DNA from: Branchiostoma floridae
Taxonomy: Eukaryota; Chordata; Leptocardii; Amphioxiformes; Branchiostomatidae
NCBI RefSeq assembly: GCF_000003815.2
Contig: NC_049988.1
Span: forward strand, 15,959,778-16,023,777
Direction: 5' to 3'
DNA length: 64,000 nt
This document shows positions 1-61,391 of this stretch, in pieces (position 1 is the stretch's first letter; every line of letters begins with the position of its first letter). Position numbers and translations under genes: made by a program. A model generated the notes under the pieces. It was not told the DNA's origin and ran no database searches. It saw only the letters and a list, made by a program, of their open reading frames with translations.

Positions 1-2935
1 GCATAGATGGGTATCACTTATACAGACAGGACAGGAATCGGTCTGGGGGAGGGGTCGCAATTTATGTGTCTGAAGCATATAGCCACACTGAGAGGACAGA
101 TATGACACAACCTGGATTAGAGGCACTTTTCTGCCAAATCCAGCTGCCCTTTACCAAACCTATTGTTGTTGGTTCTATCTACAGACCTCCAAATGCCACA
201 GTGGATTTCTACTCACTGCTAAGAGACAGTCTAGAGACCTGGAGCACCTGCACTCCAAACTCAGAACTGTTCCTGCTTGGGGACATGAACATTGACCTGA
301 GTAACACAGACACGTCAGGAGCCAGACACATCACAAACCTTAGCCAGGAATACCAGCTACAGCAGGTAATAGATAAGCCCACAAGAGTGCTCCAACATTC
401 GAGTACTATAATTGATCACATTTACTGTAGTGACTTACATCAGGTGTGTGAGCATGGTGTAGTGCACTCCACCCTTTCGGACCACTATGCAGTGTTCTGT
501 GTCAGGAAGGCAAAGCGACCTAAATCAGCACCTAGATATATCACCTCACGCAAGTTCTCCAACTTCGATGAGAACAATTTCCTGACCCATCTTAGAACAC
601 TAAGCTGGGACAGTGTCCTACAGTCCACCTGTGTAGAGGAAGCCTGGGGACTATTTAGGTCTCTCTTCATCACTGTTAGTGATTTACATGCCCCATTCAT
701 ATCAAAACGCACAAAGGCAAATCAGCCCAAATGGCTCACACCTGACCTTCAGCGATTGATGCATGACAGAGATAGCACTAAGGCGAAAGCCCGTAGGACA
801 GGTGCTACTGTAGACTGGGAAGGATATAAAGCCAAAAGAAACCATGTCAACAAATTGGTCAAACAGGCCAAAGCAATGTACTGTCAACAAAAACTAAAAG
901 AAAATATGTCAAACACAAGTAAGTTATGGGCAACAATAAAGGAAGTACTTCCAAACAAAAACCCTGTTGTTACCAAGTCACTTCATTGGGGAGGGCAGTT
1001 CTACAAGGACCCCTCTAGCATAGTCTCCTGTTTCAACAACTTCTTTGTTTCCATTGGAAACAAGTTAGCTGAGAAGTTCACGAAACAGACAGGTAACTTG
1101 GTTTGCCCAGATAAGTACAAGAAGCTAACATCCACTTTCGCCTTCAAGGAGGTAACAGAAGTTACTGTATACGACAAGCTCAGAGTCTTAGGGACTAACA
1201 AGGCCACAGGGTTGGACAAGATACACTCAAGACTGCTAAAAGCAGCTGCACCGTGTATATGCAAACCTATGACCCACATATTTAATCTGTCTCTCTCATC
1301 TGGTATCATTCCTAAGGAATGGAAGACAGCTAAGGTGACCCCAATACACAAAGGGGGGGAAAAAGAGGATCCAAATAATTATAGGCCTATATCTGTTCTT
1401 CCAGTCATCATGAAAGCCTTTGAAAAAGAGGTACATGGTCAGTTCCTGGAATATCTCCACCATCACAGCATTCTCTCTGAACAGCAGTCTGGGTTCCGGC
1501 CAGGTCATTCCACTACTACTACTTTACTGGATGTCACTGACCATGTGTATCAAAACATTGACAGTGGAAACCTAGTGGGGGCTGTGTTTTTAGACCTGAA
1601 AAAGGCTTTTGATACAGTAGATCATTGCCTGTTACTGAAGAAACTGTCCTGGATTGGGGTTAAAGATGTAGAACTCAAATGGTTCACAAATTACCTATTT
1701 GATAGAAAGCAGACAGTGTCTCTAGACGGTTGTGTATCTGATTATCTCCCAGTGACAGTAGGTGTGCCACAAGGGTCAATCCTTGGGCCATTGTTATTTA
1801 TTGTGTTTATAAATGATCTACCTGACTGTATCTCCAACAAAGTATGTCTCTATGCTGATGATACGGCAATTTTTTGCTCCAGTAATGACACTAGGTACAT
1901 TGAAGCCACTCTGAATTCAGAACTCTCCCACATAGCTACATGGTTCCAGTTAAACCATTTGACCCTAAATGCCTCAAAGACAAAGTGGATGCTCTTTGGG
2001 AGCAGTGGTAAGCTTAAGAAAGCACATACAGTGTCAATCAAAATTGGACTAGAGTCAATAGAAAGAGTGGTTTCATTTAAATACCTAGGGCTTATTCTTG
2101 ATGACAAATTGTTGTGGAATGAACATGTTGACAAACTCTGCTCAAAGGTAACCCAACGAGTAGGTTTACTCAGACGTCTTAGACCTTGCTTCACTGTAAA
2201 TATAGCTGACATGTTGTATAAAGCAATGGTACTCCCCCTTCTGGATTACTGTGACACCGTGTGGGATAGCTGCGGAGTGGGGAGACAACAACAACTCCAA
2301 GTGCTACAGAACCGGGCTGCCAGGGTAGTTCTGCAACTCAACCTACAGGCCAGCAGTGTCCTCAACCTTCATGAGAAGCTCAGCTGGCAGTACCTCGCAG
2401 GGAGAAGGCGGGATCATGTGTGCATTATGGTTTACAAGTGTATCAACGGGCTAGCACCAACATACCTATCATCCATCTTCTCTCACAACCACAGCTTACA
2501 CAATTACCAAACCAGACAGACATCACTCCTATACAAACCCTTTTTCAAGACCACAACAGGACAGCGTACATTTTCATACAGAGGTGCTAAACACTTTAAT
2601 TCACTTCCAGCCTACATTAAGCAAGTTCAAAGCCTAAATTCATTTAAGTCAGCTTTGAAAGACCTAACATAGTTTCAGTACTGAGTAGTGACCTCTGACC
2701 TCCCAAACTGTTGACCTTGGATCGGATTATGATTTTGATTTATCTATGTCTTTCATGTTTCAGTTGTATTTATATGTTTCCGACGTATTGTCTACTTTCT
2801 CTCTGTAAGTTGTTTTTATTTCCTTGTATGTATATGTGAATACTGGGCCCTATTGAAAACCAGTGTACTAGCACTGAATAGGCTACCCAGGTGTATGAAA
2901 ATAAACAAACAAACAAACAAACAAAACAAACAAAC
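1..2935 (+). mobile_element. CR1/L2-like non-LTR retrotransposon, left end outside window
   Basis: The element covers the ORF2 coding region, a ~220-bp 3' UTR and a terminal (AAAC)n tract at about 2899-2935. The short microsatellite-like tail instead of long poly(A) is typical of CR1/L2-type LINEs. The reading frame is already open at base 3, so the 5' part, including any ORF1, lies to the left of the window. No stop or frameshift was seen over 2.67 kb, suggesting a young copy. It lies in the direction in which the missing RACGAP1 exons should be found, so it probably sits inside a RACGAP1 intron. Confidence 0.85.
3..2672 (+). CDS. LINE ORF2 protein: endonuclease (C-terminal part) plus reverse transcriptase
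   Basis: The frame starts at the window edge with the end of an APE-type endonuclease: the DGYHLYRQDRNRSGGGVAIY region, then GSIYRPPN, LLGDMNID and the SDHYAVF block holding the catalytic Asp-His pair. A ~200-residue linker follows. The reverse transcriptase shows NNYRPISVLP, SGFRPGHSTTT, FLDLKKAFDTVDH, GVPQGSILGPLLF and the catalytic YADDT motif. The C-terminal part contains the GLAPTYLSS motif common in CR1/L2-like elements. The protein nicks target DNA and primes reverse transcription of the element RNA. There is no RNase H domain. The frame is open upstream of the first in-frame GTG at 66, so the true start is outside the window. The clade is inferred from motifs only. Confidence 0.88.
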   Translation: MDGYHLYRQDRNRSGGGVAIYVSEAYSHTERTDMTQPGLEALFCQIQLPFTKPIVVGSIYRPPNATVDFYSLLRDSLETWSTCTPNSELFLLGDMNIDLSNTDTSGARHITNLSQEYQLQQVIDKPTRVLQHSSTIIDHIYCSDLHQVCEHGVVHSTLSDHYAVFCVRKAKRPKSAPRYITSRKFSNFDENNFLTHLRTLSWDSVLQSTCVEEAWGLFRSLFITVSDLHAPFISKRTKANQPKWLTPDLQRLMHDRDSTKAKARRTGATVDWEGYKAKRNHVNKLVKQAKAMYCQQKLKENMSNTSKLWATIKEVLPNKNPVVTKSLHWGGQFYKDPSSIVSCFNNFFVSIGNKLAEKFTKQTGNLVCPDKYKKLTSTFAFKEVTEVTVYDKLRVLGTNKATGLDKIHSRLLKAAAPCICKPMTHIFNLSLSSGIIPKEWKTAKVTPIHKGGEKEDPNNYRPISVLPVIMKAFEKEVHGQFLEYLHHHSILSEQQSGFRPGHSTTTTLLDVTDHVYQNIDSGNLVGAVFLDLKKAFDTVDHCLLLKKLSWIGVKDVELKWFTNYLFDRKQTVSLDGCVSDYLPVTVGVPQGSILGPLLFIVFINDLPDCISNKVCLYADDTAIFCSSNDTRYIEATLNSELSHIATWFQLNHLTLNASKTKWMLFGSSGKLKKAHTVSIKIGLESIERVVSFKYLGLILDDKLLWNEHVDKLCSKVTQRVGLLRRLRPCFTVNIADMLYKAMVLPLLDYCDTVWDSCGVGRQQQLQVLQNRAARVVLQLNLQASSVLNLHEKLSWQYLAGRRRDHVCIMVYKCINGLAPTYLSSIFSHNHSLHNYQTRQTSLLYKPFFKTTTGQRTFSYRGAKHFNSLPAYIKQVQSLNSFKSALKDLT

Positions 2936-2948
2936 CCGAAATATTTTA

Positions 2949-4130
2949 AAGTCAAACTGCTGAAGAGAAGTAAGTGACTGCTACGATTATCGTAGATATG
3001 GCCCTAAAAAAACTGATAAAAGAAGCCTTCTCAATAGCCTAAAATGCAAGAGCTTCCGGGGGGGCTTCGCCCACCTGGGTCCCCCCCACAGTGGCCCTGC
3101 CCCTGGACCCCGCCAGGGACATTCGGCGGCCCCCGGACCCCTGTCCGACGCTTTGAAAAAATCCTGGCGAGAAGTCTGTACGGCCTGAGTCTTCAAGTTA
3201 ACGTATTGTGTGGTCCCGCTTATGAATATTAATTAGCCTTCGCTTTCCTCTTCGCTGATTGGCTGAACCATTAATTGAATTAACTCTTCCTGCCGGCTAG
3301 ACGCAGGTGCAGATGTCGGCTCTGTGGGGTGAACGTCCGAAAGGTCACGGCATGGAGAACGAAAGAAAACCAATTTCCCCTAAAAAAAGTGCTGTAATTA
3401 AGCCTTTTACAGTACTTTATGCCAAAAATTTTACTTGGATCATTTTACCAACTATATTATGCCTATCTATACCAAATGTTACTCATACCAGGGTACAGGG
3501 GTGAAAAATATACCGTTATAAGACCGTCAACAACAGTCGCACGGAGCTAACAGCGCAGCGAAAATACCATCGCTAGCGTTTCAACTTCGGATAACAAGTT
3601 ATAAGTACTGTTGAACTCAGTAACGTTAAAGTTTGTTTTTAGTTGCCTTTGACGGTTTGACCTGAAACAGTGTTACGCTAAACTCCTGAAGAGAAGTTAA
3701 GTGACTGCTGCGATTATCATAGATATGCCCCTAAGAACTGATACAATATAAAGCCTTCTGAATAGTCTAAAATGCGAGAGCCTTAGGCGGGCTTTGCTCC
3801 CCCTGGCGGGAACACTGCTATATACGGGATCATGAGGCCCCGCTTATGAATATTAATTAGCCTTTGGCCTCCTCTTCGCTGATTGGCTAGGTCTTTGATT
3901 CAATTAACTCTCCGGCTGACGCGCACAGGTGTGGCTCTGTGCGGGGTCACAGAAGGTCACGTCAGGAGGCCAAAAGAAAACAAATTTCCCCTCAGAAAAG
4001 TGCCAAAATTAATCATTTTAAAGTTGTTTATGTCAAAAATTTTACTTGAATCTTGTTACCAAGTATCTAATGCCTATCTATACCAAATTTCAGGTCATTT
4101 AATTGTAATACCAGGGTACAGGAGCCAAAA
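2949..4130. repeat. Two diverged direct copies of a ~500-bp repeat
   Basis: Copy 1 (about 2949-3510) and copy 2 (about 3674-4130) share, in the same order: CTGAAGAGAAGT, GTGACTGCT, CGATTATC-TAGATATG, AAGCCTTCT, CTTATGAATATTAATTAGCC, CTCTTCGCTGATTGGCT, TTTTACTT and TACCAGGGTACAGG. The offset is about 625-725 bp and changes along the copies, so several small indels separate them. Copy 1 carries a GC-rich insertion (3054-3150) that copy 2 mostly lacks. No coding function is apparent in the short ORFs here. Copy 2 runs directly into the 162-bp tandem array. Confidence 0.75.
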
Positions 4131-4660
4131 GTGTCCTTTTTTGGTCAAAATTGGCCAAAAATCGCAAAAATAAGCATTTTGTTGCACTGTACACCAAAAG
4201 TGTTATTGAATTTATATGAAGGGATTATCAAGGCACATCTGTGTCAAATTTCAGCTCATTCGGTTGCAATACCAAGGTACAGGAGCCAAAAGTGTCCTTT
4301 TTTGGTCAAAAATTGGTCAAAAAATCGCAAAAATAAGCATTTTGTTGTACTGTACACCAAAAGTGTTCTTAAATTTATATGGGGGCATTATCAAGGCACA
4401 TCTCTGTCAAATTTCAGCTCATTTGGTTGTAATACCAGGGTACAGGGGCCAAAAGTGTCCTTTTTTGGTCAAAAATTGGTCAAAAAATCGCAAAAATAAG
4501 CATTTTGCTGTACTGTACACCAAAACTGATATTGAATCTATATGGGGGACTTATCAAGGCACATCTGTGCCAAATTTCAGCTCATTCGGTTATAATACCA
4601 GGGTACAGGGGGCCCAAATATACAGTTTTGGTCTTAAGATGACCAAAAAACCTTAATAAA
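4081..4660. repeat. Tandem repeat, unit ~162 bp, about 3.5 copies
   Basis: The block beginning GTGTCCTTTTTTGGTCAAAA recurs at 4131, 4292 and 4455 (periods 161 and 163). Each unit continues with ATCGCAAAAATAAGCATTTT, a CTGTACACCAAAA segment, TATCAAGGCACATCT and TTTCAGCTCATT. A partial last unit ends near 4660. The short open frames on the plus strand come from the repeat and are not taken as genes. Confidence 0.85.
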
Positions 4661-5083
4661 ATCATTTAAGAGACAGATATGGAAAAAATGAAAAAAACGC
4701 CCGAGGGTATTGGCCCACTCTACCCTTGTGCCAAATTTCAAGTCATTCGGTTGAGGAACAACGGAGATACCGTGTTCTGAAGATTTGACAGGAGAAAGAA
4801 ACATTACGAATACAATATATTTCACCATACCTATGGTATGGCTGAAATATAACTATCAACTTGTCTTACTTTACTTTATTCAAATTGTGACAAGAACAAT
4901 ACATTGTGGACACAAGGTAGCAGGTTGATATTGTGACCAATAAAACATATACTATCATTCTTCAATACATTGTATTTTCATTTTAATGTTAGATATAGTC
5001 ATAAAATTTTTAAATGTCATCTAGCTATTTGTACAATCTTCTGACATGAAGACAAGTATATCTTATGTGGAAAGTGTACCAAC
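4661..5083. other. AT-rich non-coding stretch, probably RACGAP1 intron
   Basis: No exon, repeat unit or RNA gene was recognised. If RACGAP1 continues to the left, this is intron following its last exon visible in the window. Confidence 0.4.
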
Positions 5084-8000
5084 CTTTTTGCCTCCATGTG
5101 AATGTCTCTTCCATTCTGTTCCATCTCTCAACATTGAAATATCCTGAGGAAACAATTATGATTTGCAACACATTAAATACTACATAGATAGATACAACAT
5201 AGGAGAAAGCCATCTTGTGGAGATCTAAATACATTGTACAAAACATAAAAATGACAGAGGAAGGAATATGTCCAAAATGTCGTATTCAGACAGGAACTTA
5301 CATTACAAAAATATACAAGACTGTCTATATCCTCTTCACTGTTTGATGATATGTTAAGTTTATTAGGGAAGAAGACCTAACTACTTACAGCATCCAAGTC
5401 ATCATCTGTGCGATCATAGCTGATGTCAGATGCAGAGAGAATCGAACCGTTGGATTCATCTATTGCCGACAATCTGAAGTGATAAAACAAAAACACATTA
5501 TGCATTTAAATTTTAACGTCAAAAGATCAACCTGCATGATCTAATAATCACCAAGCAGATCCTACAGTGGCATAAGATAGTACCAAACTGGCCAAGGAGT
5601 GTAGTCAGCCAAGAGGTGTCCATTTGCCATGTAGGGAAACACACTCCTAAGCCAGCTTCACTCCTCTGCCAGCTTTTGATACTATCTTATGCTACCGTAG
5701 GATCTGCTTGGAGATTATGATCTAACTCCATCAATATTATTCTACTATTTCTATACAGTAAATAACAGAACACAATAAAAACTATAATGGTTTTGAAATG
5801 AACAAAAAACAAACCTTTTAGCAGGGGACTTGAGGTTTGTAGCGCTGGCCAGAGCAGCGAGACTCTCCCTGCCTTTCTCGTCCAGCATGCTGCGCTGTTT
5901 GTCGTCCAACAATTCTCGCACAAGGGCTACTTGTCGTTCCTAGGAAGGCCAAAGTGGATAGTTTTAAAGAACACTTGCAGATAGATGACAAAAGTTATGT
6001 GTGATGGGTCATTCAGTGTAATATAACCAGCTGCTGCAGCGCCGCATGCCTGCGAAGCTGGTGTGTTATGCCGAACGGCGGTTATACCGGCTATATAGAT
6101 ACAGAGATATACAGAGAGTAAACAACACATGTTTTTGACACGTCCTTCAAAAGTTGGTGACAAAAGGTATCAATGTGGTGCCACTGTTATGGTAGAAATA
6201 CTTTGTTCTTACTCAGATATAAGATAACTACAAACTGCAAATATAATAACAAGTTGCAGGAAAAGAACAAAAAATAGTGACACGTCTATAAAGGTTAGAC
6301 ATCCTGGTAAACAATATTACAATTCAATCTCTACAACTGGAAAAAGAACGCCTTAGAACGGAGATGTACTTCCAGACACCCACCACTCTTCTCCTGCGTC
6401 ACTAGAAAGAATGAACTGGTAGGACAATCCATACAAGTACATGTACATCTAACTGGAAAAACAGGTTGGACACACCAAGTCACTAACTTATAAGGATCAT
6501 ATGCAAATGTCACTCATATGTAAAACATGTTGGTATAGTTCCTTTGGTTAGACAATGCCATGAACAAAGAGTGACCTACCAAAGTGTCCTTCTCACCCTC
6601 AGCTTTCATGCGTCGTTTCATCTCTACGTCCACCTGGTTCCTGATTAACATATTCAAGAACAAACAGTCAGATCAAGTCTCAATTGCTCACAGCATCTTC
6701 TAATCAACGCAACTCTTGCCATCATTCAATATCTTTGACTTGGTCTACAATGTAACATTTTTTATCTGTGGAAAGCATTCCAAATACAGTCATACAAGTC
6801 TTACACAACTGGTAGCCACTAACTTTTTGGTCTTGTTTTACAACTATTATAATGTGTGCATATCTACATGGGCAATGAGACATTGCAAAGAAAAAACTGC
6901 TAAGAAACGAGTTAAAAACAAGGTTCAGCAAAGAAAGGTAAGACAAAAGTGAGAAGGCTGGGAGTAACTGCTGACCTGGCATGCTTCAGTTTGGTCTCCA
7001 GAGCGTCCTTTTCTGCCTGCAGTTTTATCAGCCTCTCTCTCATCCCACCGGACTCCATTTCCGCCGTGAGCCATCGCTGGCGACACTGCTCCTGGTTCCT
7101 CACAAACTGCAGGAACTCTGTGGAAGTTTGTGGGAAACAGTTATTTCTTTAAAGCATTTCTGTATACTTATTTTATGTGCATAATGCTTTTTAATGCTGT
7201 CATCATGTTATACATTCAGCCTGGGTGCCAACCTTTTCAGCTATTAGTATACTCTCTGACAGAAGTATGCTCTCTGACAGAAACTAAAAAAAGCTAGCAT
7301 CCGGGTTATGAATATGAATATAATGCAAGGACTTTGTGTTTACCAAAGACCAACAAACCACACAATGCTCTGGGTCTGAAAGCTAACTACTTTTCAATCT
7401 TGCATCGTGAACAGAATATCTTTACTCAACTTCTATTTTTCTTACATGGCAAAAGATTTGATGTGGTTTTAATTGTGATTTAGGCATTTATTGATAGCTG
7501 AGAACTTCAAATCTACTCACTGGAACTGGTACAGTTCAAATTTGGGCAAAAATAGTAAATATTCATATAAGTTCACCAAAACAACAACATGACGGGTGTT
7601 AGACTGTTAGCAGGTGTGTTATTCTCCCCATTGTCCACTGTGAGCACACGACGCTTACGTTGATTGTCTTACCTGATTCACAGCCTTGTGTGAGCACATT
7701 GGTGCATCGCACAAGATCATCGAAAGCGGCAACAAGTGACATCTTTGACAACCTGTAACAAATACAAGGCGGAGTCGTGACTTGTGAGTTGACTTAACAT
7801 GATATGATAACAACACTCATATTGTCATGTACAAATTATGAGTGGCAACACAGAGGATTTATAATTTTAGCCATCCCCATACCATAGTTTTTGTTTTTTT
7901 TTGCAGATGGTCTAGGGGACGAAAAGACTAGTAACCATAAATTGCTACCCTTTCTGTCAATTTGAATTCAAATAGTTTACAACAGCTTCTGTTAAAAGAT

Positions 8001-8841
8001 TCTTATTTTCTGATATTTTTGGTATGGTGCCGTGGTTTAGCTTTCTTGCACCCATGGAGGTACCACAACTCTCACTGAATTCATATCATTTATGAGACCA
8101 CTAGTACAATTTGAGTGCACAGGGTGAAAAAATAAACACAGTCAGTAGCTACTTAGAAATAGTGGCAAAATCGGATGCACAGGAGCCAAATATTTTTGTA
8201 ACGCCTTGTGCAGTGGCTTTGAAAATAATTTGAACCCCTAGAGCTCTGAGAGTCTATCTTCGGAGTTCCGCACATTTTCGTTGCCGAATCATGTCAAAAT
8301 CCATTCATATATCTTGCTTAATATATGAGGAATTGCTTGTGATACAAACTCTCATGCAAAAGATCTAGCGATGTCCGTGGCATATTATTCTGATTGAGTA
8401 TCTACAGGGTTGAAAGATATATGACATGATTGACGTGATGTTGCAACTGACATCCTGGTTCAGACAAAATGCCCCCCTCCCACACTCAAAAATGCGCTGC
8501 AAACTTCAACATTTTGGAAGGATACCCTAGACTTTCCGAACCTGAAAATACACAATCTTGTGAACAAAAGTATCAGTAACTATTTCTTTGGGTAATATAC
8601 GACTAAAAACCAACAAAGAGGCACAAATACTTACTTTTTCTGGAAAAACAACTTGAAGATGGCGCTTGGACGCCCTCCGCCGGTTAGCGCCGTGAATTCA
8701 AAAATGGCAGCCAATCAACGGGCTGCGTTCCACCGGAAGAATTTCCGAAGATTCCCGAACAGCCGATCACGTACGAAGATGACGTAGAGGGTCAAAGTTG
8801 AGAAACGATCACCGACCGCCATCTGCTCCGTCCCGTGACAT
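5084..8841 (-). CDS. RACGAP1: Rac GTPase-activating protein 1 (centralspindlin subunit), 5' half only
   Basis: Six coding exons read on the minus strand: 7742-7673 (ATG at 7742), 7117-6976, 6640-6580, 5939-5815, 5473-5389 and 5143-5084. All junctions have AG/GT sites and compatible phases. The spliced protein begins MSLVAAFDDLVRC and includes EFLQFVRNQEQCRQRW, KLKHARNQVDVEMKRR, LERQVALVRELLDD and KRLSAIDESNGSILS. These match the order and spacing of human RACGAP1 (KLKHARNQVDVEIKRR, RLSTIDESGSILSDISF). This part is the N-terminal coiled coil that binds the MKLP1 kinesin, plus the Ser-rich linker. The C1 and RhoGAP domains must lie beyond the left edge, past the LINE and satellite. The last exon (5143-5084) fits in phase but is weakly conserved. 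A non-coding first exon probably ends at 8635, before GTAAGT (8634-8629). Confidence 0.88.
5537..5724. mobile_element. Inverted-repeat MITE (family A) in RACGAP1 intron
   Basis: Terminal inverted repeats of about 55 bp are visible: CCAAGCAGATCCTACAGTGG on the left, and on the right a sequence whose reverse complement is CCAAGCAGATCCTACGGTAG, followed inward by CATAAGATAGTA. A related copy lies at 21222-21362. There is no coding capacity. Confidence 0.75.
6294..6560. repeat. Possible small repeat in RACGAP1 intron
   Basis: GGTTAGACATCCTGGTAAAC at 6294 recurs as GGTTAGACATCCAGGTAAAC at 16741. The segment AGTCACTAACTTATAA with ATATGCAAATGT (about 6479-6510) recurs in the hairpin at 11503-11588. 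These are scattered pieces of one interspersed family; exact limits were not resolved. Confidence 0.4.
7118..7672. other. RACGAP1 intron, nothing recognised
   Basis: AT-rich intron between the first two coding exons. A short imperfect repeat, ACTCTCTGACAGAA then GCTCTCTGACAGAA, occurs near 7251-7282. No RNA gene or element was recognised. Confidence 0.5.
8635..8841 (-). promoter_or_regulatory. Presumed RACGAP1 first exon and promoter
   Basis: On the minus strand a GC-rich stretch ends in a strong donor (GTAAGT at 8634-8629), as expected for a non-coding first exon. Just upstream are TTTGAA (8702-8697, the CHR consensus of G2/M genes) and a CCAAT box (plus-strand CCAAT at 8711-8715). An AAGATGGCGCT motif at 8656 resembles a YY1 site. 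Human RACGAP1 is a mitotic gene, so CHR and CCAAT elements would be expected, but the spacing here is shorter than the usual CCAAT-CHR arrangement. The transcription start is not determined. Confidence 0.4.
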
Positions 8842-8941
8842 NNNNNNNNNNNNNNNNNNNNNNNNNNNNNNNNNNNNNNNNNNNNNNNNNNNNNNNNNNN
8901 NNNNNNNNNNNNNNNNNNNNNNNNNNNNNNNNNNNNNNNNN
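8842..8941. other. Assembly gap (100 N)
   Basis: A run of exactly 100 N, the conventional placeholder for a gap of unknown size. It lies in the promoter region between RACGAP1 and ATP5PF. Confidence 0.99.
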
Positions 8942-9339
8942 CCGAAGCACGCGGCGCGGGCTATTAATCCTTTAATCGTACAACTGGTATTGACTACCTT
9001 AGAAATCTTACACAAGAAGTATTATGTTTAGCCAGAATGGTGTTGAGTGGATAAGTGGTGCTAAAATTGTATTTTTTTCATGAAAATTTGACCAGACCGA
9101 CAGCGTCATGGGTGACCGTAAAATAATGATTTGCCCTGATTTTAGAGGACTAAAACTAGTAAAAGAGCAATGTAAAAATATTCATTTTACCATACAGTTC
9201 TACATGTTAATAGGGATAGGAGTAGTTATGTCAACCTTCTGCTGGTACTAACATTGTTTTGCACGATCACGAAAGGTGTAACACTAAAAACATGCTGATA
9301 TAGCTTACCTGATCACGGGCATACTTACCTCATAGGCCC

Positions 9340-9620
9340 TGTCAGAAGTTGGTGGGGTCACGTGGTCTTTTGGTTACGTGTGCAACGCATGCCGAGTGCG
9401 TGCCCTCAGTCGGTTTTTGTCGCAAAATCGCACTTCGGGTACCTTCCGCATCCGTCGGAAATCACCGTCGGAACTTTCCGCTCTCACTCGGGTTCTTCGG
9501 GTCACGCACGGAACACCGACCCGGGCGCTTCAGCACAGGCGATCCGACAACAATACCTTCGCCTACCGCCGAGGGGCTGACCGCACTCTCGGACCTCTCT
9601 CTCATTTAACAAAAGTGGTG
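9340..9620. promoter_or_regulatory. CpG-rich segment between RACGAP1 and ATP5PF
   Basis: This stretch is clearly richer in CG dinucleotides than its surroundings and is open in all three plus-strand frames for 70-90 codons without recognisable protein similarity. A consensus donor, GAGGTAAGTATG, is visible on the minus strand around 9320-9331. It could be a further 5' exon of RACGAP1 or of another minus-strand transcript, or the ATP5PF promoter. Its function is not settled. Confidence 0.3.
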
Positions 9621-9733
9621 TCGACGTGCGGTTTTCGGCATCATATTCGTCACTAATCTACCTACCCGGGATATTACTGTGATTTTGGACACCGCTTTGG
9701 TTTTTTTTTTCTATATCATCTCAAAGTTGGGAC

Positions 9734-10009
9734 ATGCAAACATGGCGAACGTACCTTGAAAGTGACCTTCTTTCAGCGAAATTTCTAGAAACCACACCGA
9801 CTGACAAAGATGGCGCCTTCCTTTTACGCCCCTCTAACGTTTCCGCATGGAAAACAATTTACGGCGCATGTTTGGACATGTCTGAGAGGCAAAGTTTCGC
9901 CGAAATTTTGAATCGGCAAATCGACCCGCCATTTTTCCAAATGCCGCACATGAGGCGTTTTGTCGTAAATGGACCAGACCAAATTCTGACAGGTGTGTGC
10001 CCGTGCTGA
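9734..10009 (+). CDS. Unassigned 91-codon ORF, possible first exon
   Basis: I do not recognise this product. The ORF starts MQTWRTYLESDLLSAKFLE, is not low-complexity, and contains KDGAFLLRPSNVSAWK and FRRF-like basic residues near the end. A usable donor (GACAG then GTGTGTGCC) lies at about 9992, 18 nt before the stop, so it could be a coding first exon whose continuation is masked by the downstream element and gap. GAFLLRPS looks superficially like the FLVR region of SH2 domains, but the flanking SH2 pattern is absent. It may be chance. Confidence 0.2.
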   Translation: MQTWRTYLESDLLSAKFLETTPTDKDGAFLLRPSNVSAWKTIYGACLDMSERQSFAEILNRQIDPPFFQMPHMRRFVVNGPDQILTGVCPC

Positions 10010-10340
10010 TGAAACCTTGGCATGTAAAGCAGACTCTATTCTTCTTCAAAGACGATTAGATCAGTGCAAAGAGAGCATGATCTCGTCGTGAATGTTACTT
10101 TATACATCTTTATACATGTTGCTGTACGTAAAACTTGCGGAAATACGCTGCCATCTAGATCATCCGCAGGGACCGGGGCTCAAGGCTTGCTGTAGTGGTT
10201 TGTTGCTTTTGACCTGCTTGTGTTCACTGGCACATGCAACTGTGGGGAGATTTGACTGACAGAAGACGGCAAACCATGTTCATACGCTTTAAATGCTTGA
10301 AAACGAATCAATTTCATTTGAATGCGATTCATGTGAAGAC

Positions 10341-12133
10341 ATATGTCACAGGGGAGATTGGAATCCAGGGGGATTCGGAATCCTCCTAGGGGAGATTGGA
10401 ATTCCAATCTCCCCTAGGAGGATTCTGAATCCCCCTAGGGGAGATTGGAATTCTAATCTCCCCTAGGGGAGATCGGAATTCCAATCTCCCCTAGGAGGAT
10501 TCTGAATCCCCCTAGGGGAGATTGGAATTCTAATTTCCCATAGGGGAACCCCGATCCAATCTCAAATCATGCTAAGATGTAGGAAACAGCAATACTTTTT
10601 TGATAAACAATTGATTTTATTTAGCATTAATGCAAACCTTCTAACTCAAGCCTACTTGTGTCACTTCTACAATGTTAACTTCACCGAAGACTACCACACT
10701 AGAGTCACTTCTGCAACTTTACTCAATGCAGGTCTACTCAATTATCTGCTCTATCACACTGCATACCGGATTGAATGAGATGGAGATTGGTAAAGTTTAA
10801 TCGTGTTCTCACAACATTGAAAACCACATTGAAGCTATAGTAGAGTTTTTCTGATGACCTGACGAACGCAGCNNNNNNNNNNNNNNNNNNNNNNNNNNNN
10901 NNNNNNNNNNNNNNNNNNNNNNNNNNNNNNNNNNNNNNNNNNNNNNNNNNNNNNNNNNNNNNNNNNNNNNNNNNNNNNNNNNNNNNNNNNNNNNNNNNNN
11001 NNNNNNNNNNNNNNNNNNNNNNNNNNNNNNNNNNNNNNNNNNNNNNNNNNNNNNNNNNNNNNNNNNNNNNNNNNNNNNNNNNNNNNNNNNNNNNNNNNNN
11101 NNNNNNNNNNNNNNNNNNNNNNNNNNNNNNNNNNNNNNNNNNNNNNNNNNNNNNTCTTTCCTAGAACTATACTCAAGGATGTTACACTATTGTCACTTTT
11201 ACAATTATACTGAAGGATACCAAACTTGAGTCACTTCTACAACGTTAACTACACTAAAGTCTGACTAGTGAAATGTACTGATCTGAATAGGTGTGAAACT
11301 GTAACATCTTGAAACTGTGATTGATATTTTGGCACTTTGATCACTTTTCAGTTGTTATTGTTCTTCCAAATTTGCGAAATGATTCTATGTCAATGTTAAC
11401 TACACTGAAGTCTGACTGTTGAAATGTACTCACTAGCTGTTAATTTTGCCAAATTTTGAACTGCAGGCTTTGATTGGAAAATGACCTTTAAGTATGGAGT
11501 CACTAACTTATAATGGCATATGCAAATGTGCTAATTTATATATTGGTGACATTTGCATACCATTATATGATTATGAGTTAGTGACTCAAATGATTCAGTC
11601 TACTTTCCAAAACAATTTCATCCATTCTGATTATTGGTAACATCAAAGATTGTCCTGGTAGAATTCTGGATTCTCCTCTATTACTAAATGTTTGAAAATA
11701 TGATGTTTAATGAGCTATAGTATAGGATAAGGTGCTATTGTACACTATAGAGAAGTATTCTTAACCTTAAATTGTCAGCAAAAATGATAAGTGTTAGATA
11801 TAAATTATAAAGCATAAGATATAATTATTTATTCTTAGAAATGATTATAAATCCTTTGTTGCATTGTTTGAAACTTTGAATCCACTCATGGTAGATTCAA
11901 AGATTATCCTGGTAGAATTCCAATCTCTCCTAGGAGAGATTGGAATTCCAGTAGAACTCCAGAAGAATTCGAATCTCCCCTAGGGGAGATTGGAATTCCA
12001 ATCTCCCCTAGGAGGATTCCAGATTCTCCTAGGGGAGATTGGAATTCTGATCTCCCCTAGGGGAGATTGGAATTCCAATCTCCCCTAGGAGGATTCCGAA
12101 TCCCCCTGGATTCCAATCTCCCCTGTGACATAT
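10341..12133. mobile_element. 1.8-kb element with ~200-bp terminal repeats made of iterated palindromes
   Basis: The left arm (10341-10555) begins ATATGTCACAGGGGAGATTG. The right arm (about 11915-12133) is its reverse complement for more than 60 bp, ending at CTCCCCTGTGACATAT. Each arm is built from repeats of a perfect 34-bp palindrome starting CCTAGGGGAGATTGGAA, separated by AGGATTCNGAATCCCC spacers. The interior (10556-11914) has short repeats of GTCACTTCTACAATGTTAAC type, a hairpin at 11503-11588 and an N gap. No transposase frame is visible. It is most likely a non-autonomous DNA transposon; the superfamily is not assigned. Confidence 0.7.
10873..11154. other. Assembly gap (282 N)
   Basis: A run of 282 N inside the palindrome-armed element. 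It may be an estimated-size gap where hairpin arrays blocked sequencing. Confidence 0.99.
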
Positions 12134-12198
12134 ACAAATAACATGATACGTGAACGTCTGTTCAATGCCCCATTTGGAATAACAGCTATCCATTGCTA

Positions 12199-12665
12199 TA
12201 GGGCTGGGTACTGGTATGGTGTACCGGTACAAAACCGGTTTTTCTCATTGACTTTGGACCGGCCCAGAAAAAACGGACCTGAAAAAAATCGGTGGACTGG
12301 ATTTTGGTCCGATACTCCGATTGGAAAATGAACTGATTATTTGATAAGGCATTCACACGTTTTCGGGGTTATCGGTCGACAAATAACAAGAGCGAAGCAG
12401 AGTAGACTCTATAGTAATTTCACAAATTTTTACAGTCAATCGTACAGAGGTAGGTAGCCTTTTAGGATTTTCAAAACGCCAGTGGGAGTCAAATATTACA
12501 CAATACAGATGTCTTTATTGCAAAATGGACCATTGTTTTGAGTATCATCCATTCACAAGTTTTCATATACTGAATCAGGTCCAGCTTCCAGTCCGGACCT
12601 GGACCTAATCTTCTGGACCAAAACCGGACCTGGACCTGAATTTTCTGTACCGGTACCCAACCCTA
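12199..12665. mobile_element. hAT-type MITE with 8-bp target duplication
   Basis: The termini are TAGGGCTGGGTAC... and ...GTACCCAACCCTA, imperfect inverted repeats. They are flanked by the perfect 8-bp direct repeat CATTGCTA (12191-12198 and 12666-12673), the hallmark size for hAT insertions. Inside are GGTACCGGTAC and repeated CCGGACCTGGACCT motifs. A terminal fragment of the same family lies at 57058-57120. No transposase is encoded. Confidence 0.8.
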
Positions 12666-12774
12666 CATTGCTATCATCTGTAAGTTATAACATGTACATA
12701 CTGTATTCATATTTATAAACTTGTTTGCTTGGTTTCTCACTCCCACCTTTTGTACTTCCCCCACAGCAGGCAAC

Positions 12775-15700
12775 ATGTTGGCGAACACACTCCGACAGTC
12801 GCTGTGCAGATGTCGACCTGCAGCGTATGCCCAGGTCCTCAGACCTCTCAGCACAGGTAAAGTAACACAGGCAGAGCAGCCAGCATAGAGCTGAAGATTT
12901 GTTTCTAAAGGCTTAAAGCAGGGCTCGAAATGCCTTTTTGGAAATAGGTGCACTGGTGCACAGCACATAACCTCAAAGGCTTTCTGTTTAGGCACACAAC
13001 ATTGAGCACAAAGTAAGCAAAATCTTATTACAAAGCTTACCAGTCCTCTCCATTCTTACACATTGGTACACATTTATCCATAACATAAAGCTAAAACTTT
13101 GTGAAGATTGGTCATTTAACCTTCTGACATGGAAACATTTAACACTGTACACAAAGAAAGTTCGGTCCATTTCCAGTACTTACAACTAGCTTACACTAAC
13201 TTAAATTAAATAATTGAATGATGATAGATATTTGATTTGAATGGTAACCTTTCCATTCTTCATTCACACACAGGAACCTAATCATGCTTTCTTGCCTTGG
13301 TGTGAAGAAGCAGCTATGAAGTGACTGCAGCATGCTTGCTTACTTTTTTATCATTTTTTATTATTTTAAGCTTGTGTTGACACCCTTGCTTCCATGCTCT
13401 AAGCCTAAGCTTGCTTTATCCCTTTGCAAAGCAGGTACAGAAAATACTCTTTGTCTAGAGTTGAGTGCTTTTGAAAATGGTCAAAAGATACCACTACCAA
13501 TAGTCGTGCAAGATGTTCACAATAGTAGATCGTCACAGGTGCATGGTTAACAAACTGTCATGCAATTCTGTGTCTGATGAACTCTGTATCTTTCCCATTA
13601 CTATCAGCAAGGAGTTTCAAACCCTAACCTATTAGTCAACTTTGGTTGTTCTTGTACTGAGACGAGTAGCAGGAAGATAGCCAGCGGTGTTTTATGATGA
13701 ATGACAGGCTAAATCTACAACAAGTAGTGGAGTTCTTTGAAGTGATTTGTTGCATCTAGCTTTGACTTCAGTTTTTGAGGACCAAGGAAATGCCTGTTCT
13801 GTTCTTTCTAGTCAGTATTCTGTCACACTCACGTTACAATGGATTGAAATGAAATCTGTTGATCAGCTGCAAACGGGGGAGGGAGAGGCACGGTCGATGT
13901 TGGAAAAGACGCAGACGTAGCCCAGCCGTTGTCACATGCACCAAAGGATTCGACAAGTCCACCTGGATGGAAAGCTGCTGCAGTACAGTCGCTGTTTACC
14001 GACGGAGTCATGAGTGACAGAGCTGCCATGGAGGCCACTGTGAAGGAGACCAAACCAGCAGAAGTGGTCACCGGAGATGCTGCAGCATCCATGGCCATTC
14101 CTGAAGTTCCAGCCTCAGATGTGCTGAGTTCAGAGGCAGTTATCGAGGAGGCTGTAGTAGCAGAAGTAGTGGCTCAAGATGCAGCAGCTCTGGAGGGAGT
14201 TGTAGGAGAGGTAGAGGCTGCTAAGGAAGATGGAGCTACTGAAGCAGCTGCACCGGAGGCTGTCGTGAAGAAGTTGTTGTGGAGGTCAGTGCTATAGAGC
14301 CAGTTCCAGAAGAAGTGGTGGCAGAGGAAGTGGTGGCTGCTGTTGAAACAGTCACTGCAGAAGCTGTAGCAGAACCAGCAGTTGTGGAGGAGGTTGTTGA
14401 GGAAGTTGTGGTTTCTGGGGTTACTGCAGAAGAGGCTGTTGCCACAGAAGCTGCAGCTGAAGGTGTCATTGCAGAAGAGATGGTAGCTGCTGAGGAAGTT
14501 GCAGCAGAAGATGTAGCAGTGGCTCCAGAGGAGACGGTTCTTGAAGTGGCGGCCAAAGAGGAGACAGTTGCTGCAGAAGCTGTGGCAGAAGAAGTGATGG
14601 TTGAAGAGATAGCTGCTGGGGGAGCTGTAGCAGAAGAAGTAGCAGCAGCTGAGGGAGTCGCAGCAGAAGAAGCAGCCATTCAAGGAGTTGCAACAGAAGA
14701 AGTAACAGCTGCTCAAGGAGTTGCAGCAGAAGAGGTGATAGCTACAGAGGAGACAGTTGCAGTAGATGCTGTGTCCCAAGACATCACTGTAGATGCTGCT
14801 GCTGCTGAAGAAGAGGTCATGGCTTCAGAAGAGACAGCTGCTGAAGAAGTGGTGCTTGGAGAGGACACAGCTACAGCAGGGGCTGTTGTGGAAGAGGTGG
14901 TCTCCGAAGAGGTGGTGACTTCAGAAGGAGCTACAGAAGAAGTGCTTGGTGGAGAGGAAACAGTTGTGGCAAAGGTAGTTGCTGGAGAGATAACTGAGGA
15001 AGTAGAAGCAGTAGAAGCTGCTGAGGAGACACAGGTGGTGGCACCTGAAGATGTAGCTGAGGCTTTAGATGCTACAGCTGAAGAGGGAGTCACTCAAATG
15101 ATAACAGAGGAAGCTGATGCTCCAGTAGAAGCTTCTGAGGAGATACCGGTTGTGGAAGTGGCACCTGAAGTTGTTGCTGAGGCTTTAGATACGCCAGCTG
15201 AAGAGGTGGTTGCTGAGGTGGTAACAGAGGAAACTCCTTTGGAAGCCAAGACAGCACCTGAGGTGATACCAGTTGTTGAAGCTACCCCTGAAGTTGAAGC
15301 TGATGCTGTAGCTGAAGAGGCAGTACCAGAGGAAGAGGAGATCCCAGCTGTTGAAGTAGCCCAAATGGTGGGGACACCTGTCGAGCCACCAGCATCTGGA
15401 GATGATGTTGCAGCTCTACCTACGGCAGGGGATGAAGATGACCCTGCAGGTGAGGAGCAGGGTATCTCTCCTAAAATCATCATATTTAGACATGGACAGC
15501 CCCATCACTGACAACTCCCATGGAAACCCCTATCCTACCCTACCCTTCTTTCCTGCCATGAATGGAGCATCAAGGTCACTAGTAGTAATAGTACCTACTG
15601 TGTCTTACAAGTTATCAGGCATGCCAAGTAAAGGATCCTTTTTACCAACCCCTTTGACATCTGCCTTGTTACGTCTGCCTTGATAGCTTCCCATTGAGAG

Positions 15701-18155
15701 AGAGTAATTGACCCTGCTCTTTCCTGCATGAGTTCTTAGCCTACCCTTCTTTTAAAAATATCTTCTTTTTAAATCTTAAAACAGAGACATGGACAATGAT
15801 GCTCATATCCTTGACTACACCACAGACAGTGCAACTATTTTGCAGCTGCAAAATGCACAATTTGCCACTGGAAATAAGGAGACTTTTTGACATGTTTGGA
15901 CTCAACATGACTCAATCTTACAGCAGTTTACTATGATGTATGTTTTGTACAAGGACGACACACATATTGAAAACTTCAATATTGTTGACATATAGCTAGA
16001 GATCACAATCTCACAAGACGTTTGAACATGATGTTAGACTAAGCAATTTTTGCAACCTTCTTCAACTGAGATAGTTTGTAGACACTAACTAGAAGACACT
16101 GATAATGTGGCCTGACGAATACAACTTACTACATGTATACAAACTCTGCCATGTCTTATATCTCACTGTCTGGATAAAGGAGAATGCTGTAAAACTATCA
16201 GTAGTATAACATTGTATGGAAGGTATGACTCATGCAAAAGCATGCTTGTGAAATAAAGGAATTAGCCACTATCTAACTGCATCTATTTTTCCTTTCCTTG
16301 TGTCATCTCACTGTCTCTTTCATTGTTTTGTACCATTTCATCAAGTTGCCCTCTTTCACATAGTTCTCATTGAGTCCACTTTTCCAGCCATAACATTAAT
16401 GTTGTCCTCATTGATGATACTCATGTTTTCATGAACAGGCAAGGCACAGTAAGCAAACACATTCAGTACAACAAGAAATGTGTAAATCCACATGATTTCA
16501 TGTGGTTGCACTGATAAGAACCAGGGCTCGAAATACCACATGCATATGCAAGTTTGTGCAAGTAAAATTGGTGTGGTGCAAGTAAGTTTAGACCAAACTT
16601 GCACCAGTGCAAGTTACTTTTGTCCTCTAATACCTGACATTAGAAAAAGCTTACACACACCAAGAATATTGTCTGTCATTGAAAGGTAAAAGAAAATAAC
16701 ACTGAATAAAAAAAAGCCTAAATTTGTTATTTCTAAATTTGGTTAGACATCCAGGTAAACTATTTTTTTTAGACAAATCCATCCCTACAATGCTAATGAT
16801 TCCTATGGTGCTGTCTTACCTTGATTTGCATATGAGTTACATTTGCATACTAATTAGTGACTTTAATATGTTCAACTGGTTTTTCCAGTTATATGTATTG
16901 TATTGAGTTGTTCTACCACTTCATTCTGGAGATGCTTAAGAATAGTTACTGTGATGGATGTCACTCGAAGAGTCCAGAAGAAATCTATTGATCTTATCGA
17001 GTTGTAGACATTGAATTGTCTTTAATTGAGCCTAAATGCACAGTTTTTATGAAACAGTTTGTACAGTTTCAAACCAAAAATAAAATACGCTACGGAAAAA
17101 CAAATATCCAAACATGTGCTCTTTACCGGTATGTATCCCCATTTACTCACGTACATTTGCAAATTTTCAGAAGAGGAGATAAGGGGTTAACATTTCACTA
17201 TTTTAGGTTGTGCAAGTAAGTTTCTTTTGGTGCAAGTTACCTTTGGCTTAACTTGCACAGATGCAAGTTGACTGAAAAGTGTATTTCGAGCCCTGAGAAC
17301 AAAGTGCCAATTAGACTTAATGATTATAATCAGATACTTTACAGTTTTGGTAAACCACAATGGATAGGATACAAAAGAATCTGCAAACATGCTTGCTTTG
17401 CTTGCTCAGCTTAGTGTAGTCTGATGGCTTTTCTGCTCTGTGTAAGGCTGCGCTTGAGTGTTGCATAACATTAGGAGCTTTCACTAAGTTGCTTGCTTAC
17501 ACTCAGCCCTTTTTTCTGCAAAATTACTATGTCATCTATTGCAAGCTGCTCTGCGTATAACATAGGTGCTCAATAGTGCTCAGCACTGCTCTGCAAACTA
17601 CAGGTTGCAATGTTGAAACATGCTCTACCTCTGCTGGTCCGGAGATTCTTGTTGCATTTCCTTGCGTTTTATGCTACTATTTTATAGTTTGCTGGTGTTG
17701 TGATGATTTTGCTTGTGGTTTGTGAATGCTGCAATTCATTCAACCACCCGACACACACATGACCTCTTCTTGGATACCCTTAGTTTAATCATTTGATTGG
17801 TGTAGTTTTGTACAGTAGTAGCCTCAGCTTCACACGTTGACTATCTATGGATTACTCTACAAACAGACTTCACAAAGATGCACAATTTGCTAACATTCCC
17901 CAAACGCATACATTCAGCTTAGTTGTATCAACCTCAATGCTATGAAGACAAACAGAAGTGAATAGTTGCTAAAGTGATGTTTTGTGTGCCCCCCCTCCCC
18001 AGGAGCTGCTGTCCAGGCTGCAGAGGCTGCTGACCCCATCCAGAAGCTGTTCCTGGATAACATCAGGACTTACTCTAACAAGAGCAAGTAAGTAAACCTC
18101 ACAGCGAGCAGAATGTAATTCCTTACCAAGGCAGCATAATTTCTGCCATGTCCTC

Positions 18156-18206
<51 letters not shown>

Positions 18207-19175
18207 CACACTTGTTAGCATTTAGATAGAATTTACAGTATTAGCATTGTTAAATGGCTCCTTTTTGTACCTTTTTTCAAACACAAAGTACAAAACAGTT
18301 GTTCTGTTATCTAATGCTACAGCTGGTAGACTACTGGTTTTGTAGCAGTGAATGGCTTGTCACAGTTTAATACTGCATACAACTCAAATCCCACCATTAT
18401 CTTTTGATCATGTGGCACTACATGACAAGAAGTTTCTGTCCATTGTATTTTTAGCATTGAACAGCTTTTAAAACATATCTGTACTGCATTTCCACTCCAG
18501 GGCAGCAGGGGGCGCTCCTGTGGATGCTGGTAAGGAGTTTGATGCTAAGATGAAGGCAGAGATCGACAAACTGACCAAGCAGTACAGCACCACCACAAAG
18601 GGAGACCTCACCAAGTTCCCTGAGTTCAAGTTTGAGGGTAAGCTTAGATGACAGTACTCAACGAGCAGAGGTGCTGTTCTGGATGTACAAATGTATTTGA
18701 CATGTTTTGAACATTTTTGTTGGGTTATTTTGTACGTTTTTCTTCATGTTTGGCCAGCGGACATAAAATAAATGCTCAGAAATAGGAAGTCCAAGAAAAA
18801 TGCCTAAAACAGGTCAAAAATAGCTGGAGCCAAATCTCTGCATGGAGAGTAAGTAAGTAGAGAAATACCCTTTACTATTACCTCAACTTTTATTGTTATC
18901 AGTGCAAGTGCAAGGATGGATGGATAGAGGGAACGATGGACAAAGGAATACTTGAAGGAACAATTTAGCAAGTGGCAAAATTGACTTGAAATAATACACT
19001 GTTGTATCTCTTATCAGCTGAAATGAGTTAGAAGAATTAAAAACAAGACCTAGGAATGAAAGTAAGGTGTTATGTAAATATCTACATTACAAATAAAATT
19101 AACTATTGTTGTTCTAAAATGCTGCAAATGTCAAGTAATATTTTCTTTGTTTCAGATCCAAAACTTCAGGTCTAA
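12775..19175 (+). CDS. ATP5PF: Mitochondrial ATP synthase coupling factor 6
   Basis: Four coding exons: 12775-12856, 18003-18087, 18501-18637 and 19156-19175. All have GT-AG junctions and phases 1, 2, 1, giving 107 residues (human about 108). Exon 1 encodes a Cys/Arg-rich amphipathic transit peptide (MLANTLRQSLCRCRP...). Exon 2 holds the family core ADPIQKLFLDNIRTY, matching human DPIQKLFVDKIREY. Exon 3 includes GGAPVDAGKEF and ends in FPEFKFE, and the last exon supplies DPKLQV, like human FPTFKFEDPKFEV. The protein is a peripheral-stalk subunit linking F1 to Fo of complex V in the matrix. Exon 1 probably begins at 12767 after CCACAG, so an upstream non-coding exon is expected. Intron 1 (5.1 kb) contains a large in-phase candidate exon, described separately. 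Confidence 0.93.
12919..13190. mobile_element. hAT-like MITE fragment (CAGGGCTCGAAAT family)
   Basis: It starts with CAGGGCTCGAAATG and GGTGCACTGGTGCAC, as in the complete copies at 16522-17295 and 42394-42749. The internal segment with TTACAAAGCTTAC also resembles the 42.4-kb copy. No matching right terminus was found, so the copy is truncated and its right limit is approximate. Confidence 0.55.
13867..15449 (+). CDS. Candidate cassette or alternative last exon of ATP5PF, Ala/Val/Glu-rich
   Basis: The block is open from an acceptor (GTTGATCAG at 13858-13866) with an in-frame stop just before it (13860-13862). Its first bases complete the phase-1 codon left by ATP5PF exon 1. It ends at a consensus donor (CTGCAG then GTGAGG at 15450), again phase 1, so joining to exon 2 (18003) keeps frame. 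The length is 1583 nt; one apparent missing base between 14243 and 14294 makes it 1584, i.e. 528 codons. The product is very acidic, built of AEEV/VAEE-like repeats, with no known domain. If the donor is skipped the frame stops at 15511 (GQPHH end) and an AATAAA follows at 16252, making an alternative last exon. The polypyrimidine tract is weak. No transcript evidence is available here. Confidence 0.6.
15512..16521. other. Intron 1 of ATP5PF or alternative 3' UTR
   Basis: Immediately after the alternative stop codon. It holds AATAAA at 16252-16257, which could terminate a short ATP5PF transcript ending in the Ala/Val/Glu-rich exon. Otherwise AT-rich with no gene recognised. Confidence 0.4.
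16522..17295. mobile_element. hAT-like MITE with 5-bp target duplication
   Basis: It begins CAGGGCTCGAAATACC and ends TATTTCGAGCCCTG. It is flanked by the perfect 5-bp direct repeat AGAAC (16517-16521 and 17296-17300). GTGCAAGT/ACTTGCAC motifs occur near both ends. A smaller repeat with GGTTAGACATCCAGGTAAAC (16741) is nested inside. Same family as 42394-42749. There is no transposase. Confidence 0.85.
17301..18002. other. ATP5PF intron 1, nothing recognised
   Basis: Stretch with frequent TTGCTTGCT and CTCTGC words. No exon or element was resolved. The polypyrimidine tract CCCCCCCTCCCCAG at its end is the acceptor of ATP5PF exon 2. Confidence 0.5.
18158..18205. repeat. (CA)24 microsatellite
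   Basis: An uninterrupted run of 24 CA dinucleotides in ATP5PF intron 2, 70 bp downstream of the donor. The long minus-strand Cys-Val ORF over it is a repeat artefact. Confidence 0.98.
18725..18860. repeat. MITE fragment (CTCCAAGCAGAGG family)
   Basis: Contains TTTGGCCAGCGGACATAAA and an end of the form AGCTGGAGCCAAATCTCTGC, matching the right half of the element at 20312-20493. The left terminus is lacking. Confidence 0.5.
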
Positions 19176-35995: not shown

Positions 35996-36145
35996 TGCAC
36001 ATGGTGCATAGAGCCGACTGAATGTACCAGGATTTCTCCCCGTTGAAGCTGCTTGCTGCGCCTGTGGAGGGTTATATCACTGTATCTGACACACTTGTAT
36101 CTGCTTTGTCCAAACCCTGCAGGTTGACGGAGACATCCAGGGGCC

Positions 36146-61391
<25,246 letters not shown>

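Follow-up and report, generated by a model that had tools for sequence, protein, structure and literature searches.

A large alanine-, valine- and glutamate-rich candidate exon with one break of frame in intron 1 of the amphioxus ATP5PF gene

In mammalian complex I, NDUFV3 is made in a short and a long form; exons 1 and 4 are common to both, exon 3 is used by the long form only, the two forms are proposed competitors for one complex I site, and 40-90% of the long form, NDUFV3L, is predicted to consist of disordered loops, depending on the program (PMC5293009). By analogy, NDUFV3 appears to be the best parallel for a block of DNA that lies in the first intron of ATP5PF, the gene for coupling factor 6 (F6), in the amphioxus Branchiostoma floridae. 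The block occupies positions 13867-15449 of a 64,000-nucleotide stretch of contig NC_049988.1 (15,959,778 to 16,023,777, forward strand; hereafter the window, whose numbering is used throughout), and we lean towards reading it, from its sequence features, as a real and probably alternative cassette exon of ATP5PF. The likeness to NDUFV3L would be that a small nuclear-coded subunit shares its termini with a short form and gains a large insert from an exon used in the long form only. The two cases differ in complex and in gene, and NDUFV3L carries a serine run, whereas the insert from the ATP5PF block would be acidic and rich in alanine, valine and glutamate (A/V/E-rich). In that account NDUFV3L was demonstrated by peptides and blue-native gels, whereas a long form of ATP5PF is predicted from sequence, with its frame broken in the assembly.

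The F6 gene that hosts the block is intact and real, and its coding part consists of four exons:

12775..12856, forward strand: first coding exon of ATP5PF, 82 nt, 27 residues plus one base, with donor CAG/GTAAAG in phase 1
18003..18087, forward strand: second coding exon, in which the mature F6 region begins; acceptor CCCCCCCTCCCCAG
18501..18637, forward strand: third coding exon
19156..19175, forward strand: last coding exon, ending at TAA

The 324-nt coding sequence yields 107 residues with the C-terminus FEDPKLQV, and this product matches the Pfam family ATP-synt_F6 (PF05511) at E=4e-24 and 85.3 bits, the curated cutoff being 27.9. A PDB search with the same product returned ten distinct F6 sequences (E 1.3e-19 to 8.2e-11); these chains are 66-108 residues long and, unlike the proposed long form of ATP5PF, none of them has a large insert. 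In the alignment with chain 1vzs, which we take to be bovine mature F6, residue 4 of the chain pairs with residue 37 of the 107-residue query, which places the exon 1/2 junction (codon 28) just ahead of the mature part. The first 27 residues are basic and without acidic residues by eye and form a putative presequence (MLANTLRQSLCRCRPAAYAQVLRPLST). The preliminary description of this locus had the exon at 12775-12856 ending in phase 1, as its 82 nt bear out. Directly 5' of its ATG stands the acceptor-like CCCCCACAG, with a score of 6.8, so that a noncoding 5' exon further upstream is likely; this and all other splice-site scores come from a vertebrate consensus matrix. When an F6 56-mer was searched in the animal's own genome (513,431,437 bases in 431 contigs, the coverage of all own-genome searches reported here), it matched this gene only, in two places.

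The features that define the block within intron 1 are as follows:

13867..15449, forward strand: candidate large coding exon, 1583 nt, A/V/E-rich, in two frames with a one-base phase shift between them
13863..14297, forward strand: open frame of the block's 5' part, from stop to stop, with TAG at 14295
14243..15511, forward strand: open frame of the block's 3' part, A/V/E-rich, with a degenerate repeat of about five residues, continuing beyond the donor to TGA 15509
14262..14269, forward strand: likeliest site of the one-base phase shift, with maximum likelihood at 14265-14266
15450..15455, forward strand: splice donor GTGAGG after CAG, phase 1, 7.9 bits, ranking first among the 320 GTs of intron 1

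From the sequence, the presence of a large A/V/E-rich coding exon in this intron, downstream of the targeting exon and ahead of the mature part, is well supported, as its composition, its periodicity and its donor all point to it. The block has the strongest three-base periodicity in the window: the top 38 of 1574 segments of 351 nt all overlap it (starts 13807-15250), with scores from 45.3 down to 8.0, the best score outside the block is 7.5, and the maximum among 72 segments of the intron flanks is 2.8; low complexity contributes much of the height inside the block. The first part, 13867-14007, which is not A/V/E-repetitive, scores 3.2, a value reached by 0.09% of 1072 intron-flank segments and by 2.9% of 8649 segments elsewhere in the 64 kb (its neighbours score 2.0-3.0), and G is highest there in the position class of the block's 5' frame. 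At first codon positions the share of G is 0.50-0.87 for the 5' frame and 0.57-0.93 for the 3' frame, with the 90-nt bin holding the switch excluded; in five bins outside the block it makes up 0.10-0.30 of every position class. The ends of the block are sharp. At 13867 the GC content climbs from 38% to 57%, and change points fall at 13864 for GC and at 13875 for G alone; near the proposed 3' end at 15449, those for G and for purine both fall at 15463. A single phase break occurs in the 1583 nt and none across the roughly 1180 nt that follow it, while a tandem-repeat search of the block turned up short arrays only, of which that at 14621-14733 is the longest. Counted on either side of the break, 526 codons (133 + 393) encode 119 alanines, 104 valines and 113 glutamates, with a net charge of -127 and no cysteine, and in the 3' part each of these three residues recurs about every five residues.

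The block ends at CAG/GTGAGG, at 15449/15450, as had been described, and the donor there outscores those of ATP5PF itself (3.5 at 12857, 4.8 by difference at 18088 and 5.3 at 18638). When the intron was resampled 300 times under an order-1 Markov model, an equally good donor arose in 56 of the sequences (0.21 per sequence); that the top donor should lie so near the edge of the coding signal, and in phase 1, is, we infer, unlikely to be due to chance.

A number of observations weigh against the cassette exon, and the foremost is its reading frame. With 1583 nt the block leaves a remainder of two on division by three, whereas an exon of the NDUFV3L type would be expected to have a length that is a multiple of three and to be open throughout. 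Read literally, exon 1 plus the block comes to a stop at TAG 14295 after 170 codons, whether the block is included in the F6 message or read through at its 3' end. A 528-codon insert within a protein of 635 residues, and a read-through protein of about 575 residues, had both been put forward, and each would need one more base; the phases said to agree at the two ends of one exon each fit only their own frame, with the break near 14265. The block is thus very exon-like but was wrongly described as a clean in-phase exon: its coding character, as seen in composition, periodicity and donor, stands, and the single in-phase exon, in the sequence as given, does not. The break lies outside any homopolymer in the sole copy found. 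Elsewhere in the window, two long open reading frames (ORFs), one of 742 and the other of 1249 codons, show no such break, so base errors are not frequent.

At the upstream edge, the junction from exon 1 to 13867 is the least secure step, because its acceptor is weak. The in-frame stop reported 4 bp ahead of 13867 is present (TGA 13860-13862), and the acceptor scores -6.4 bits, ranking 198th of 456, against 4.2-7.3 for the scored ATP5PF acceptors; paired with the donor at 12857 it reaches -2.9, whereas the three F6 introns score 9.0-10.8. The better acceptors at 13812 and 13816 run into stops at 13850 and 13845, respectively. The openness of the frame is also weak evidence by its length alone, since at the composition of the block a run of 413 codons should hold about 3.0 stops, with a probability of 0.05 for none, and the G-first composition keeps frames open easily. 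Among 22 similar 45-nt pairs within 14321-15400, the differences amount to 0.21, 0.28 and 0.33 at codon positions 1, 2 and 3, so that the third position barely exceeds the second and selection on the protein has left no clear mark; all 22 of these selected pairs are in phase, which is partly forced by the G-first composition.

The position of the frame break was determined with a position-specific model, under which the two-frame reading scores 751 bits; the 3' frame by itself reaches 303 and the 5' frame by itself -651. Because 14321-15400 served as the training stretch, these bit sizes are inflated, while the place of the shift is clear. The idea that an intron within the block bridges the two frames was rejected: of all GT-AG pairs with a donor at 14000-14295 and an intron length of 50-599, the best scored -3.5, against 9.0-10.8 for the introns of ATP5PF itself; from the fair donor at 14285, none of the 175 AGs at 14330-15449 is in the phase needed; and the A/V/E-like character of the 3' frame sets in at about 14267, upstream of that donor. 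A programmed frameshift is not favoured either, as by inspection CTGTCGTGAAGAAG has no slippery run. The likeliest explanation of the break is a consensus error or a disabling allele. The published chromosome assembly of B. floridae, from which this window probably comes, was built from about tenfold Sanger reads of one diploid animal, whose two highly divergent haplotypes were assembled separately and later merged (PMC7269912). Under such conditions a one-base consensus error or a minor allele is plausible. No second copy or other haplotype against which the break could be checked was found in the own genome. There, the DNA of 14430-15511 matched only itself in a search that passes over simple repeats and words of very high frequency; the 3' peptide, with 35 candidates scored, found only itself at E up to 0.001, and the 91-residue 5' peptide, with four candidates scored, found itself and a chance-level match at E 4.9.

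In the reading that we prefer, skipping of the block would give the ordinary F6 of 107 residues, and inclusion of an unbroken block would lengthen the protein by about 528 acidic, A/V/E-rich residues, inserted after the mitochondrial presequence and ahead of the F6 domain. Such a long form would presumably be imported by means of the F6 presequence and take the single F6 place in the peripheral stalk of ATP synthase at low stoichiometry; its F6 domain may anchor it in the stalk, by analogy with NDUFV3, and its acidic tract would then form a flexible extension on the stalk. That one amphioxus gene yields two forms of a stalk subunit in this way, the longer with an imported acidic extension of about 528 residues and with an origin independent of the parallel in NDUFV3, is a proposal that we make tentatively. 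The cassette exon is likely to be lineage-specific.

The alternative first exon and the decayed exon are serious alternatives to a long F6 form. In the former, which we consider unlikely, the block would have its own promoter in intron 1, translation would start at ATG 14010 (MSDRAAMEATVKETK...), and the donor at 15450 would be spliced to F6 exon 2, giving a product without a presequence. No acceptor is needed here, which fits a top donor combined with a poor acceptor; ATG 14010 is in frame with G at -3, and 13867-14009 holds 10 CpG in 143 nt, against one in the preceding 147 nt. An ATG had earlier been placed at 13929, where there is none: those within 13861-14100 stand at 13897, 13936, 13967, 14010, 14028, 14077 and 14091, and three of them (14010, 14028 and 14091) belong to the 5' frame. 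A start at 14010 would therefore lie downstream of the out-of-frame ATGs 13897, 13936 and 13967, and three-base periodicity is already present in 13867-14007, where G peaks in the position class of the 5' frame; moreover, an unbroken frame is required, as for the cassette exon. A weak acceptor would go with a cassette exon that is mostly skipped, and no acceptor with an alternative first exon; we prefer the cassette exon because the coding signal extends up to the AG, beyond ATG 14010.

If the frameshift is real, the block would be a formerly coding exon that has decayed or is dead in one allele, which we hold to be quite unlikely. The break is present in the reference, outside a homopolymer, and the acceptor is weak, both of which fit decay; the donor, however, is strong, and the 1583 nt hold a lone phase break with none in the long stretch behind it, which speaks against decay.

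The frame of the block's 3' end runs on to a stop at 15509-15511, and an AATAAA follows at 16252, both as had been described:

16252..16257, forward strand: AATAAA, which may serve as the poly(A) signal if the block is read through

A short nested transcript could thus begin with the borrowed presequence exon and have the block as its last exon, with no splicing at 15450, a stop at 15509 and polyadenylation after 16252. Such a transcript, which is improbable in our estimation, would bypass the best-scoring donor of the intron, and AATAAA is common there, with two more at 16705 and 17079. The A/V/E-type coding score drops by about 32 bits over 15461-15508, although a non-repeat tail would lower it too, and an unbroken frame is again required. 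That the block is a non-coding low-complexity GNN repeat with only the appearance of coding is hardly credible: G-first composition alone keeps a frame open, the third-position differences between internal repeats show no clear excess and the antisense frames are also partly open, but an AG and the best-scoring GT lie close to the edges, the opening 140 nt show periodicity without being A/V/E-repetitive, and the three-base phase is held for about 1180 nt in the presence of only short tandem arrays.

For the predicted protein, Pfam returned no family with the 5' frame and none at the cutoff with the 3' frame, for which only HC2 appeared, at E 0.28, its 11.7 bits falling short of the cutoff of 40; a PDB sequence search with the 3' frame gave no match at E up to 1, and a search of a phage collection with the block in distant mode gave none. 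Proteins rich in the same three residues that are annotated as fibrous sheath CABYR-binding-like are presumably alike in composition only. Among the papers searched we found none on amphioxus coupling factor 6 and none on an ATP5PF isoform with a transit peptide; gene databases lay outside both searches, and a RefSeq exon model may exist. We know of no F6 with a large insert.

If expressed, the block would provide a second example, from another respiratory complex, of how a very small subunit gains a giant low-complexity segment through one alternative exon, and this exon would sit between the presequence and the anchor domain, as in NDUFV3. Expression would also suggest a repeatable route to regulation for such subunits and would allow the effect of a long peripheral-stalk tail to be studied in an accessible animal. 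If the frameshift is real and fixed, the block would be a dying exon and of lesser interest.

Intron 1 also contains what looks like a mobile element of about 770 bp (16522-17295), to judge from its two apparent ends: CAGGGCTCGAAATAC, placed by eye at about 16522, and ...GTATTTCGAGCCCTG, whose last base is 17295. An extra copy of the end lies at 12919-12939. Upstream of ATP5PF, a head-to-head gene on the minus strand was located by eye at 5800-7750. One of its exons reads TEFLQFVRNQEQCRQRWLTAEMESGGMRERLIKLQAEKDALETKLKHA, which we take to resemble the N-terminus of RACGAP1, and a PDB search of 5800-7750 returned six saxiphilin sequences only, at chance level (E 0.06-0.07). By eye, no GABPA neighbour was seen at amphioxus ATP5PF in the head-to-head position that GABPA/NRF-2 has in mammals (PMC2713978); a splice variant described in that paper belongs to another gene, PREPL.

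Elsewhere in the window, near-palindromic units like CCTAGGGGAGATTGGAATTCCAATCTCC occur in two clusters, at 10349-10547 and 11914-12125, which flank an assembly gap (10873-11154) and are perhaps the ends of one element. At 4084-4609 there is a 163-bp tandem repeat of 3.2 copies with 91% matches. The ORFs of 742 and 1249 codons mentioned above follow one another on the forward strand at 44383-50533 and look to us like a LINE ORF1 and an endonuclease/reverse transcriptase ORF; 54941-55948 and about 1-2680 are presumably further reverse transcriptase stretches. ORFs at 36128-37671 on the forward strand resemble exons of an ABCB-type transporter.

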